Shown here in pieces: positions 8,732 through 57,088 of a stretch of DNA of 64,000 nt. The DNA comes from Beroe forskalii. Taxonomy: Eukaryota; Ctenophora; Nuda; Beroida; Beroidae. The notes under the pieces were generated by a model. That model saw only the letters and a program-made list of their open reading frames with translations, made no database searches and was not told where the DNA came from. The stretch's first letter is position 1. Each line of letters starts with the position of its first letter. Made by a program: the position numbers and the translations under genes. The DNA is taken from positions 124,001-188,000 of the forward strand of contig WFMF01000049.1 of NCBI GenBank assembly GCA_011033025.1, written 5' to 3'.

Positions 8732-10404
8732 TCATATCTCCATCTCCTTGCACGCGTTGAACTCACTGGAATCCTCTCCCTTCTTCGCCTCTTCTTCCTT
8801 CTCGGAGCGTGCCCGGGCCCAGTGACACACGATGTAACCTGAGATCATAGGTCTCCCATGTAAACGGGCTGAGTGACGTCACAAAATCTCAATCTTTTTG
8901 TATCCTTAACCTAACCATAGCCCTAACCAAAACCCTTACTTTAACTCAAGAGGTTGAAGTTTAAACGAAATAACTGATACGAGGGAACTGTAAAAAGTCT
9001 CTAGAAAATTTTGTCTTATCGTCGTCAACCTTAATCTTTAACCATGAAAAAAACAAATCCAGGCAATCCTGCCCTTAAAGCGCTAGATGCGCTAAAATAT
9101 AAACCCATGCGTCATCATCAACGAAAGTTCTCGTTTATATGGGAGACTGACCTGAGATCATGAGGACCCCCAGGACGATGTAAATGTACGGGTACATCTT
9201 CCAGAACGTAAACTTCTCACAGGCGCACACCGCCCGGCCGATCTCGTCCGTTTCGCAGCTGCAGATATATTAAATTTAAATATCTTTATTTTCTAATTTG
9301 ATTGTAAAATTGCCAAGAAATTTATAATAAAATTGTTCACTTAAATAAAATTGTTTACCTGCACTTTTCGTAGATTTCCGGCAGGCATTTGACCGTGGTC
9401 CGGTTGGCGTACGATACGCAGTGCGGTTTTCCGTGCCGACTCCGATGGCACCATTTTCTCTTTGATTTGTGGTCCTCTGCTTCGACGATAACGTCTGCCG
9501 GAAATAATCTGTTTTAAACTTTAAAGGTCGAGGGTAAAGAATGTAAGGGAATGTCCTTTTCTTCCTATTCACTTATATTTGTAGGTGCCCTTCGGGGTTT
9601 TACAACAACAATTTCCTTAGGGAAACAGCCCTTTAAATATTGAACTAAAAACTTCCCATTATTCCGATTGAGTATGGCCGTTTCGTTGACCTCTTCAATA
9701 TTGAAGAGGTCAACGAAACGGTCAAACTCAATCGGATAATGGGAAGTTTTCAGTTTCATAACCTTCGTCTTTTATCGCAGTGCAGTTAACGTGCTCTTCT
9801 GAAAACTTCCCACTTCCCCAGCACAAGCCGTCAATAATCCTATCGCTGCAGTAGCCTGAAAAATGTAAATGTAAAACTAAAAACAAGTACAAGTACAAGT
9901 ACAAGTACAAGTACAAGTACAAGTACAGGTACAAAATATGAAATATAACGGCAATATTGTGCTTAAAAACCAATCGCTATCAACGATTTACATTCAATGT
10001 ACATTCTATAAATGTACATTGTACATTGTATTTGTACAATGTGCATTTTACAAATGTATACATTGTACACTGTACATTTGCATACATTGTACAATGTTCA
10101 TTCTACAAATGTACATTGTAAATAAATACAAATGTGAATTCTACAATGTGCATTTTACAAATGTATACAAATGTTCTGTTTACAATGTATAGAAATGTAC
10201 ATTATACAATCTAAACAAATGTACATTGTACAATGTATACAAATGTACACTGTACAATGTATACAAATTACCCAGTTCCTCGGTGATGCTCATCAGTTCC
10301 TCCAGCGTGGCTCGTTTGCCTGGCTCACTGCACTCCTCCGCTCTCAATAAGTGTCGGAGTAGCCAGGGGGCACTGATTACCAGCCATCGGATCAGGAATA
10401 GCAT
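8732..10404 (-). CDS. Small cysteine-rich type I membrane protein (191 aa, 5 exons)
   Basis: CDS = complement join(8732..8838, 9152..9258, 9359..9494, 9763..9855, 10272..10404), 576 bp with all phases consistent. The ATG has CACC before it, and AATAAA follows the TGA directly. The protein opens with a hydrophobic signal-like segment (MLFLIRWLVISAPWLL). Next comes an ectodomain of about 110 residues with eleven Cys, including KWCHRSRHGKPHC and CSCETDEIG, and sequons NCT and NRT. One transmembrane segment follows (YPYIYIVLGVLMISGYIV), then a short charged tail (RSEKEEEAKK) ending CKEMEI. The spacing hints at a small disulfide-rich receptor ectodomain, but I recognise no family. Exon 1 is preceded by two partial copies of itself. 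The last intron is a transposon insertion (see 8849-9149), and without splicing the frame ends at once. I am confident in the gene structure; the function is unknown. Confidence 0.8.
8849..9149 (-). mobile_element. Introner-like MITE forming the last intron of the 191-aa gene
   Basis: The 301-bp element has inverted ends (GTCTCCCATGTAAACGGG left; right end reads GTCTCCCATATAAACGAG on the other strand). It is flanked by a perfect 12-bp direct repeat, which reads ATGATCTCAGGT on the gene strand (9161-9150 and 8848-8837). Both splice sites fall inside that repeat: the donor is CTCAG|GTCAGT at 9152/9151 and the acceptor is CTCAG|GT at 8839/8838. Removing 8839-9151 restores exactly one copy of the target, the reading frame and an uninterrupted transmembrane helix. 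The element contains no open frame. Confidence 0.85.
9645..9752. repeat. 108-bp palindrome in intron 2 of the 191-aa gene
   Basis: The arms (AAAACTTCCCATTAT..CCGATTGAG and CTCAATCGGATAATGGGAAG) meet at CTTCAATATTGAAG with almost no loop. The right arm ends only about 10 bp from the exon 2 donor at 9763. It is probably a small fold-back element. Confidence 0.75.
9881..10262. repeat. AAGTAC microsatellite and TACAAATGTACATTG repeats (intron 1)
   Basis: 9887-9930 is a 6-bp array (AAGTAC). 9985-10262 is a degenerate array of TGTACATTGTACAATG/TATACAAATGTACA, rich in self-complementary TGTACA. It lies within intron 1 of the 191-aa gene. Confidence 0.8.
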
Positions 10405-52590: not shown

Positions 52591-55500
52591 AATTTTAATC
52601 ACCATGGTTGTAAAGGGATGCACGGCAGCATTGTTTCCTTCTGATTCCAACAAACTGTAATCAAACGAAGCCCAAAATTCAGTTTTATCGTTTGGAATTG
52701 CCTCGTCTCCATCAGAACACCTAGCAGAAGTCATCATTCATTAAAAGTTCTTCATACTCTCATACTGTGATTTTGCTCAATTATATTTTTTTTCAAAAAT
52801 AAAAGCAAGATTTCCGCCTTACGCCATTACTGGATTATACAGATGATTGGTAAATTGATGTTTTACCTGTCAAACAGGATCTTTGCTTGCTCAGGGAAGT
52901 GAATAATGAGTTGATGGAGAGGGTTGGAGTTGATATTTTCCTGTTTTTCATCATGATTGTCATTCATCGTTGTATCGTTAACTGGGACGTTTTCAGTTAA
53001 GAGAGGGGTTTCAAAATGCTAAAATGAATCAAAAATATTATCATTTAAGGTTTTATTAAAGTTTATTTACCAGCATGACAAAATAATTATATTTTGTGTC
53101 TTATCAATAAATTTGCACCGTCCGCCTGGGCTTCTTTCGATAAAAAACCTAACCTGCTTTTGGTTTCGGTTGCTGCTTTGGTTGCTTCTGTTGCTGTTTT
53201 GGTTTCTTCTGAGGTGACAACATTTGCTGTTTTGGTTCCATAAGCTGCTGTTCAGAAGTTGGGCGGGGTTTAATTGCCTCCATATACTGATCCGACCTCA
53301 ACAGCAAAGATACAATGTTCTCATTATTAGCCCTGATAGCTGTCAGAAGAGCGTTTTCTCCAAGTTGATTGAACGCATCCACCTGACATCCCTTTTCAAG
53401 TAGCAGTTTGGCTGCCCCCTCCTCCCCAGTTTGTGCAGAGTAATGGAGGGGCCTGTCCTCATTGCTATCAACAGCTTCCAGCAGAGCACCCTCGTTTATA
53501 AGTAGCTTTATCACGGTAACAGATCCTGATTGAGCTCCAAAATGGAGAGGACTTACTCCTCTCATGTTTCTTCTGTTCACATCAGCCCCTCCAGAGAGTA
53601 GTACCCTAAAAGAGTGGTAAAATTCGGGTTTTGAAAATCAGGATGCACTGTCTCCACAATTGGGACATAATTCATGGTCTTACAACAAAATACAAAAAAA
53701 TTCACGCTATCAATAGAACTATCATCAATAGAATTATCACCACTTATCATCAATTATAGACCTGCAGGATTGAGAATGACTGCGTTTAGCAGCCAGATGT
53801 AATGGAGTGTTCCCCAATCTATCCTCATACCCTACACATAGATTACGCTCGCCTATCATGAACTCTAAACTCCTGGAAAGTAGAAGGGATATAATAAATC
53901 AATTGATAAAACGATAAACACCCATTTGTTCGTGTACTTAGGAGGGCAAAAAGTAATCATGAAATTGTAACCCATCAATTAATGATATCGGATTAGCTTC
54001 ACTTTGATATACTCAACTCTAATTGTCATACAATAGAGTTAATAAGGAGTTAAATGGTATTGACTAACTCTTTTCTCCCCTCCTCTGCCGCCAAGTGTGC
54101 GGCTGTCTTCCCTTGCTTGTTCTTTCTACTCAAATCATAGCCTTGTTTCAAGAGCAACTGCGAGGAAAAATCAGAGATGAATGAGATTTTTAGGTTTTTG
54201 GGGTAATTCAATCTATATTATACATGCATATTGCTGTATTTCATCAGATTATTTCTGGATTTCATTTGATATATTTGCTCATTCGTCATGTTGATGCATT
54301 TTCTCAAAGCAATGTATTTAAGCACCTGTAGACACATGATGTATCCGTGTTTAGCAAGCAATGTGAAGGGGAGTGTTATGTCCGTTATCAATATCATCCT
54401 CTATCGTATTCTCCTTCATCAGTGTCATCAGGTACCGCACTACTTCAACCCGGTTCTTTAGAACTGGGAGAGGGGATGTTATGAATTTCAAGAATGAATA
54501 ATAAAACCAATAAAACACTTTCAGTAGAAACATTTTATGGATTGAAAACCAACCAGCAATGCTAAGATGGATCAGATTTCATGGCGATTTTATGAGGTCG
54601 ACAGTATCATGAACTGATCCAAGTCCCTTCATTGAATAGTTGAATACAAACCTGCATGTGATATGGGAGTGAGTCCTGAGTAGTCATGTGCCCAGTGGTT
54701 GGCTCCATTCTCAACTAATAGTTTGGGAAGGTCTATGGCCTCGTTAGCAGCACATGCATACATGAGAGGGGTCTCTCCGTGCATGTCCTTACACTCTGTG
54801 TCCACTTGACTGGAAATAAGTTGTTGAAAATAACATGAAGCCTCGGCGTGAAGTCATTACTCAACATTTGAAGCAGTGATAGCCTTTCATAACGTACAAT
54901 CAAAATAATACACAATACCTTGATCATTAAAAAATCAAATGAGTTATGAGTGATAACTGGACATCTGATCAACTTTACTTACTATTTGAGAACGAGAGTT
55001 TCTGCCGCTTTGAATTGACTGTGTTGAACTGCCAAGTGAAGTGGAGTCTGCCCCACTTCATTGACGCATTTCTCATCAGCACCCGCCTCAATGAGAACAT
55101 CTATGATGTCACTAGCACCTCCTACAACTGCACAGTGCAATGCCGTCTCACCTGAGAAGTGAACTCTTTAATTATATCCAGCAGCCCCTGGTTTACCTCC
55201 GCAGTCCGTTGACAATCACTCAACGGACCGGACGCTCAAGTGTCAACGGTCACTTAATAAGTTGAAAATGGTACTTAATTTACCTGACTCTGTCGCATAA
55301 TTGACATTGATAGAATCCTCATAGGACACTTCTCTTCCAATTGCAGTGAGATATTTGACAATCTCCAGATTGTTGTTGAGACACGCGTGTAAGAGTGGTG
55401 TTCTTCCTTCACTATCTACACTGTCCAGCTCGGGAATGTACTTTCCTTTGTATTTCTTATCGGGTGTAGCTTCCACCAGAGACTTGACTATCTCAACATT

Positions 55501-57088
55501 CCCTTGACAACATGCAACATGCAGGGGCAGCTGAGACTTTCTGAAGATGGAGGGAAGTGGATTAGTCAATCAAAGTCTTTATCAGTAATCAGACTACCTA
55601 TTCATATCAGGCAGTAGGTCGTTATACCGTTATTTCAAGTCAACTATGCCAATAATAAACCTCCACTATATATGAGTTTGTCGACGTCAACTATCCTGAA
55701 ATTTAGATACTAGTAAAATTCTTAAAATACCCATTTTTGATCTTGGTGGAAGGTTTGAGGTCGAATTCAAAGAGAAGTGCAGCAACACAGTCTGCATATC
55801 CATTTGCAGCAGCAAGATGGAGGGCTGTCATTCCACTCCTTCTGTCCATCAAATTATCTGATTGGGAAAGATTGATTTTTATTGAAAGAGATAACTTATA
55901 TCTTATATATAAAAGATATGAAATGGCAATGTTCCAGTATTAGAGGGTTGCGGGTGGTATCACTAAAAGAATCAGTCGAATCATTAAGAATGATAGTCGA
56001 CAGCCTCCTGGTTCATCAATAACAACTTTGTAAAAAATCAATTATTCAGAAAATAAGGTATTATTTTAATAATTTACCTGTCAAGTCAAGATCAATTCTC
56101 ATCTCGGTAGAGAGGTGTATCAGAGCTCTCATGTTTTCCAACAATCCTTTTGCAGCACATGCGTGGATTGGGGCACGACCAAAATTACCCTAAAATGATA
56201 CTATTACCATGGAACATAACGCCTCTTGGAAACTTCTCATGGTAGCATAGAGTCCAAATTCCCTTTGTTCTTTTGGCGTCTATTGCAACATCCAAAATAG
56301 AATACAAGAAGTACAAACAAAATTAAAAGTTGAAAAATTGAAAAACAAACTTTTTGACTTCATCAAGTCTGATACGACATTATCATAAGCCTTATCAAAC
56401 CTGCAAGTTAGGATCGGCAGCATATTCAAGTAGAATTTTGATAATATCTGCCCGATTTGGTGTCCTTGCTGCCCAATGTAAGGGTGAGCATCCATCAGAA
56501 CCAATAACGTCAACTCCTTCGGAAAGTGAAATTTGTAGAAATGAAAAGGAGTTGAATAAACCAATAAATACTTAAATAGCTCGAAGAAATTATCTACATA
56601 CCAAAGCCATTCAACCAATTGCAGCATTACTCCTTTGCACTTTGACGAACCTGCATGATATTTACTGAGCAGCAACTTAACAACTTCTGTGTTGCCTGCA
56701 TCTGCAGCATAATGTAATCCAGTAGCACCATCAACAGGGTTAACATCATTTACATGTAAGTGCCCCTTACTGAGAAGATCCTCAATGGTAGGTATGTCGC
56801 CATCTTCACATGCCTGAAATTAGGACAGTAATGACTAATGTACTAATGTAGGGTAAAATGAAATGTTGTTTCTGAGTTCATTCATCAAGATCAATTTTAA
56901 GCATCACATGATGATATTTAAATAATAAATAAATTTCTAACACGCTCGAACATTTAATGAACTATCACAGTTTCAGCAATCAGCATATTGTATTATATGC
57001 TGATTGCTGAAACTGCTGATTCCTGTACAGGAAATGGAAAATAATTGAAACAATTTCATACCTGGTAAAAGCTTTTGGACCGTCCCAT

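Follow-up and report, generated by a model that had tools for sequence, protein, structure and literature searches.

A probable transposon-made intron in a gene of the ctenophore Beroe forskalii, beside an intron that looks to come from a second repeat

The origin of new introns is a long-standing question. Plant insertions of the Ac/Ds type are known that are spliced from transcripts: the element lies in an exon, and its termini serve as splice sites. For introners, the Methods of PMC9860276 require of a family at least four introns that are similar to near both boundaries, and in the survey given there, animals and land plants taken together show introners in only two groups, both of them animals, with copepods named. 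The introner elements of Amoebophrya, in the sections of PMC7789003 that deal with them, are mostly non-canonical introns with direct repeats of 3-5 nt and no family-specific inverted repeats. Among the papers listed, our literature search, outside of which most subscription papers fell, turned up no ctenophore intron reported as the product of a transposon. Here we describe a gene in a stretch of 64,000 nucleotides of the Beroe forskalii genome (assembly GCA_011033025.1, contig WFMF01000049.1, positions 124,001 to 188,000), which is called the window below. We consider it quite probable that a transposon in a coding exon of this gene is spliced out as intron 4, and that the preceding intron had a similar origin from another repeat family.

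The gene was read by hand on the minus strand as five exons encoding 191 residues, with every exon in phase. Exon 1 (10272..10404) begins with the ATG start and is without homology support. For exon 2 (9763..9855), from the same hand-read model, an alternative donor that lies 51 bases upstream and keeps the frame is possible. Exon 3 (9359..9494) aligns in its 3' part with a homologue, P0001; exon 4 (9152..9258) also aligns with it, and exon 5 (8732..8838, including the stop codon) does so up to the final residue of P0001 and is open as far as its stop. Between these last exons lie intron 3 (9259..9358, 100 bp, GTAAAC...CTGCAG, phase 2, within a serine codon) and intron 4 (8839..9151, 313 bp, GTCAGT...CTCAG, phase 1). 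The latter is placed by the reading frame and by the gap-free homologue over the junction, and its putative boundaries, taken from sequence alone, are GT-AG. Taking out 9151-8839 fuses exons 4 and 5 in frame at Gly156 (VLMISG|YIVCHW) inside a hydrophobic segment of the predicted protein, in which the 19-residue hydropathy window reaches up to 1.9. When intron 4 is retained, the frame reads MISGQSPI and then a TAA stop, and beyond residue 100 of this unspliced reading no 19-residue window exceeds 1.6. The original prediction had held that removing 313 bp restores the frame inside a membrane helix and that the unspliced frame soon stops at TAA, and reading of the sequence confirmed both points. 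The 191-residue model protein gave no Pfam match at E 0.01.

Intron 2 of the same gene holds a 113-bp near-perfect palindrome (9643-9755, minus strand, 93% self-complementary), and intron 1, at 9870-10271 on the minus strand, is largely a palindromic minisatellite of the GTATACATTGTACAATGTACATTT type that starts a few bases after the donor. Neither was kept as a candidate transposon intron: the palindrome matched only itself in the genome search, and the minisatellite, which is dispersed and has many genome relatives (40 of 85 candidates scored), is more likely a secondary expansion.

A search with the peptide of exons 4 and 5 (70 residues) found one homologue, P0001, which aligns with the full query at 69% (E 4.2e-24); the next-best protein match was 31% identical, with an E of 0.0035. 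Against exons 3-5, P0001 is gap-free at both intron positions, KCS|C and SG|Y. The sole internal gap of the alignment is one residue close to the C terminus, and the final residues of exon 5, SEFN-CKEMEI, agree with P0001. An alignment-based search returned P0001 again and no additional relative, and the full-length model as query found no longer homologue. Since P0001 is the sole homologue found, exons 1 and 2 are a hand reading. P0001 backs the predicted product and not the gene structure (the longest of its source contigs has 1,758 bp). In this assembly the gene is present at one locus only, and a genome search for an empty allele or close paralogue showing the ancestral site found none.

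The insert carries a perfect 12-nt direct repeat (8837-8848 and 9150-9161, at a spacing of 313) and a 16-nt inverted repeat that is 94% complementary (8851-8866 and 9132-9147), in agreement with the general picture of the original prediction, in which a 301-bp element was flanked by a perfect 12-bp duplication. Both lengths are revised by comparison with 66 other copies of the element. The window copy has 305 bp (8848..9152, minus strand, with ends GGTCAGTCTCCC... and ...GGGAGACCTA), and its target duplication, TGATCTCA, has one exonic copy at the end of exon 4 (9153..9160) and the other at the 3' end of intron 4 (8840..8847). A target duplication of 12 bp was dropped in favour of these 8 bp, which is the length in the 66 other copies. 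In the 12-bp repeat, the 8-bp duplication is extended by a coincident A in one direction and by GGT in the other; of the two copies of this GGT, one belongs to the transposon terminus and one to the host exon. On the acceptor side, the window copy ends 2 bp short of the family terminus, with CTA instead of CTACC. The donor GT and the acceptor AG had both been placed within the duplication copies, but the donor, G|GTCAGT, is part of the transposon end, the first G of the element being the last base of exon 4, and the acceptor is only half inside: its A is the final base of the duplication and its G is host base 8839. With the donor in the element end and the acceptor at the duplication edge, intron 4 amounts to the element and a single copy of the target, minus the 2 missing bp.

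The genome assembly (216 Mb, 1,134 contigs) was searched for further copies by their ends, as had been proposed, and the 18-base family end gave 1,039 exact matches (551 + 488), with none for the reversed control. In 88 loci (290 kb, some overlapping), the 66 other copies have paired ends and an 8-bp duplication, which is perfect in 59 of them. This set admits at most one mismatch in the duplication and excludes copies with unpaired ends as well as the window copy with its 2 missing bp; it leans to well-preserved copies because the search patterns required exact ends, and part of the loci were picked for CAGGT or AGGT. The length is 249 bp in 30 of the 66 copies, and the consensus of the family ends is GGTNN(G/C)TCTCCCATRTAAAC. 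Judged by terminal inverted repeats common to many dispersed copies and by a target duplication of fixed length (8 bp in the 66 copies), the insert is a copy of a large family of non-autonomous DNA transposons, or MITEs. Insertion at AGGT sites, which had also been suggested, finds no support in the duplications of the 66 copies, as these have a weak AAWWTT centre without AGGT preference, and the GGT on the donor side is the element's own. GT stands at bases 2-3 in 120 of the 132 element ends of these copies and GTNNGT in 96 of the 132, both being upper figures because the search pattern favoured such ends; the commonest donor-like ends are GTATGT (40), GTCAGT (23), and GTATCT (23). Since both ends of the MITE are alike, a copy supplies a donor-like sequence whichever way round it inserts. 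Copies nested within each other or close together were seen at L008, L012, L014, and L038.

The family, its ends, the duplication, the restored frame, and the gap-free homologue are established from the sequence. From them we infer that the ancestral exon was free of this intron, that the insert is spliced, and that its persistence is due to splicing. The coding exon would have been hit by a non-autonomous DNA transposon that duplicates 8 bp of its target; the transposon end would supply the 5' splice site G|GTCAGT, and the last A of the duplication together with the adjoining host G would supply the acceptor AG. The spliceosome would remove the insert as intron 4 and restore the ancestral coding sequence, and the insertion, apparently old when compared with other copies, would have been retained; the preceding intron would have arisen likewise from another repeat family. 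Exact restoration requires a duplication that ends in A and is followed by a host G, and the window copy has both. Where copies had been picked without regard to CAGGT, such a restoring A|G occurs in 5 of 90 orientations, and in the CAGGT-selected set in 9 of 42. With so few of them, clean removal by splicing would be open to a minor part of the insertions into exons, the window copy among them.

The original prediction went further and proposed an active or recently active family that adds introns genome-wide. Recent activity is borne out, as many copies are near the consensus. That the MITEs are a true introner family, with many copies being introns and introns being added across the genome, is in our opinion unlikely, even if the donor-like ends in both orientations, the high copy number, this recent activity, and one clear (predicted) intronic copy would all suit it. 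The window copy also has its intron edges at or near the element ends, as the boundary criterion of PMC9860276 has it, when judged on the sequence. One intron from this family has been seen, and at the junctions of the 66 other copies there is no coding excess. The rejoined site is spanned by a frame of 100 aa or more in 14.4% of 132 readings (66 copies, both strands), and the same holds for 13.9% of 396 controls, and the median open frame is 59.5 vs 55 aa. None of nine junction frames had a Pfam match; these nine were drawn from the 14 longest, leaving out L048 and L070 (tandem repeats) and L052, L015, and L068 (dispersed-repeat sequence). The 14 orientations with a restoring A|G showed no evident exon by eye. 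As the coding test covered 66 copies of possibly more than 1000 and may overlook short exons, a minority of the copies may be intronic.

For the age of the insertion, 56 rows including the window copy were compared over their well-aligned end, each row having an end that matched the test stretch almost throughout. Only one row is more diverged than the window copy, which stands at 84% to the consensus counting gaps (median 97%); when gaps are ignored, it is the third lowest, at 89%. Among the matches listed, its element bases at about 97-178 have no counterpart in other copies, and bases 179-253 were matched by few copies, at 73-76%. Judged by this divergence, the insertion is old relative to the sampled copies, against the young event that had been proposed. 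Dating by the identity of the two target copies was rejected, since 8 bases hold little information and the element itself is diverged.

Such an insert might also have broken the gene: left unspliced or poorly spliced, it would cut the protein short within the membrane segment, and the gene would be decaying. The pyrimidine tract of the acceptor is scant, which counts against efficient splicing, and the unspliced reading stops at once; yet few copies are more diverged than this element, while exon 5 is still open and its final residues match P0001, and donor and acceptor lie exactly at the positions needed for restoration. We regard a broken gene as quite improbable, whereas an old insert followed by an intact downstream exon fits removal by splicing. 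The chance is slighter still that an intron already existed at this position and that the transposon inserted into it later and took over both boundaries. Other repeats are indeed carried by introns of this gene, but intron 4 contains only the element and one target copy, and its target duplication lies half in coding sequence, which requires that the insertion struck an exon or the very edge of one. An assembly error or chance resemblance is hardly credible, since in spite of the single locus of the gene in the assembly, the ends, the duplication, and the family membership agree independently.

Intron 3 resembles a second, interspersed repeat. A genome search with 9160-9500 gave 20 other places that match this intron, and 16 of the 20 matches start at most 6 bases from the donor. 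When aligned, they form a repeat with CAGGTAAACAATTATTTATT at its end, often as a tandem pair; flanks of about 120 bp were read around the copies. The resemblance runs from the donor to TATATCTG, three bases short of the acceptor end, and the final portion of the match is short and AT-rich. The repeat core has 69 genome matches with at most two mismatches, the window's own included, and the control has none. Several copies stop, by eye, at differing points on the far side. The comparison suggests that the repeat behind intron 3 is a 5'-truncated retroposon lying antisense. TGCAG may be a 5-bp duplication, or the insertion may have been blunt, and either way splicing would give KCSC, as in P0001. 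Intron 3 looks transposon-made as well, its donor lying at the end of the repeat and its removal giving exact restoration. For a control, 53600-56500 was searched, a stretch of a nearby ankyrin-repeat gene with its introns; all its matches, in a search that skips very common words, lie on the same contig and resemble tandem paralogues.

This ankyrin-repeat gene lies on the minus strand and has more copies at G000:C569:189007-202281, in pieces 72-88% identical; the copies on the contig are apparently a tandem array. Elsewhere in the genome, a contig of 13,339 bp carries mitochondrial COX1 (L109, G000:C1134:1-990) with 53% identity to an insect-type query. It has three in-frame TGA codons and reads under code 4. 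Its AGA codons fall at arginines that we take to be conserved. Mitochondrial code 4 is used by sponges and cnidarians as well. Ctenophores are thought to use this code too (PMC6991124). The COX1 is very divergent, which makes a ctenophore the moderately favoured source.

One can read from the locus described here its source family and its empty site, along with the two target copies and the two splice sites; another repeat within this gene appears to have arrived at the same solution. It is possible, though on balance we doubt it, that unrelated transposon classes (a DNA MITE and an apparent retroposon) gave introns in one gene with ends that happen to form good donors, and that this process may add introns elsewhere. 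If that were true, one process would have produced the two adjoining introns independently. We think that, with a locus so readable and a second intron that looks repeat-derived, donor-like ends of transposons become a predictor of intron gain that can be tested.

Intron 4 is probably a transposon-derived intron of the known introner type. It shares with the introners described in PMC9860276 a non-autonomous element with terminal inverted repeats and a target duplication, the intron being the insertion. Moreover, as in the type drawn in Fig. 2C of that paper, the 5' splice site is carried by the element and the other is recruited from the duplicated target, and the length of the mRNA is left unchanged by splicing, which is here a prediction. 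Unlike the families defined in PMC9860276 by at least four similar introns, the MITEs have given one intronic copy seen here, and 66 others are without coding excess. With the Amoebophrya elements, as PMC7789003 presents them, our locus has in common the internal inverted repeats and the direct repeats that overlap the exon-intron boundaries, and it differs from them in its canonical GT-AG, its 8-bp duplication, and its family-specific ends. What sets our locus apart from the plant cases of Ac/Ds type is the exactness of the predicted splicing and a copy that looks old instead of being a new mutation.
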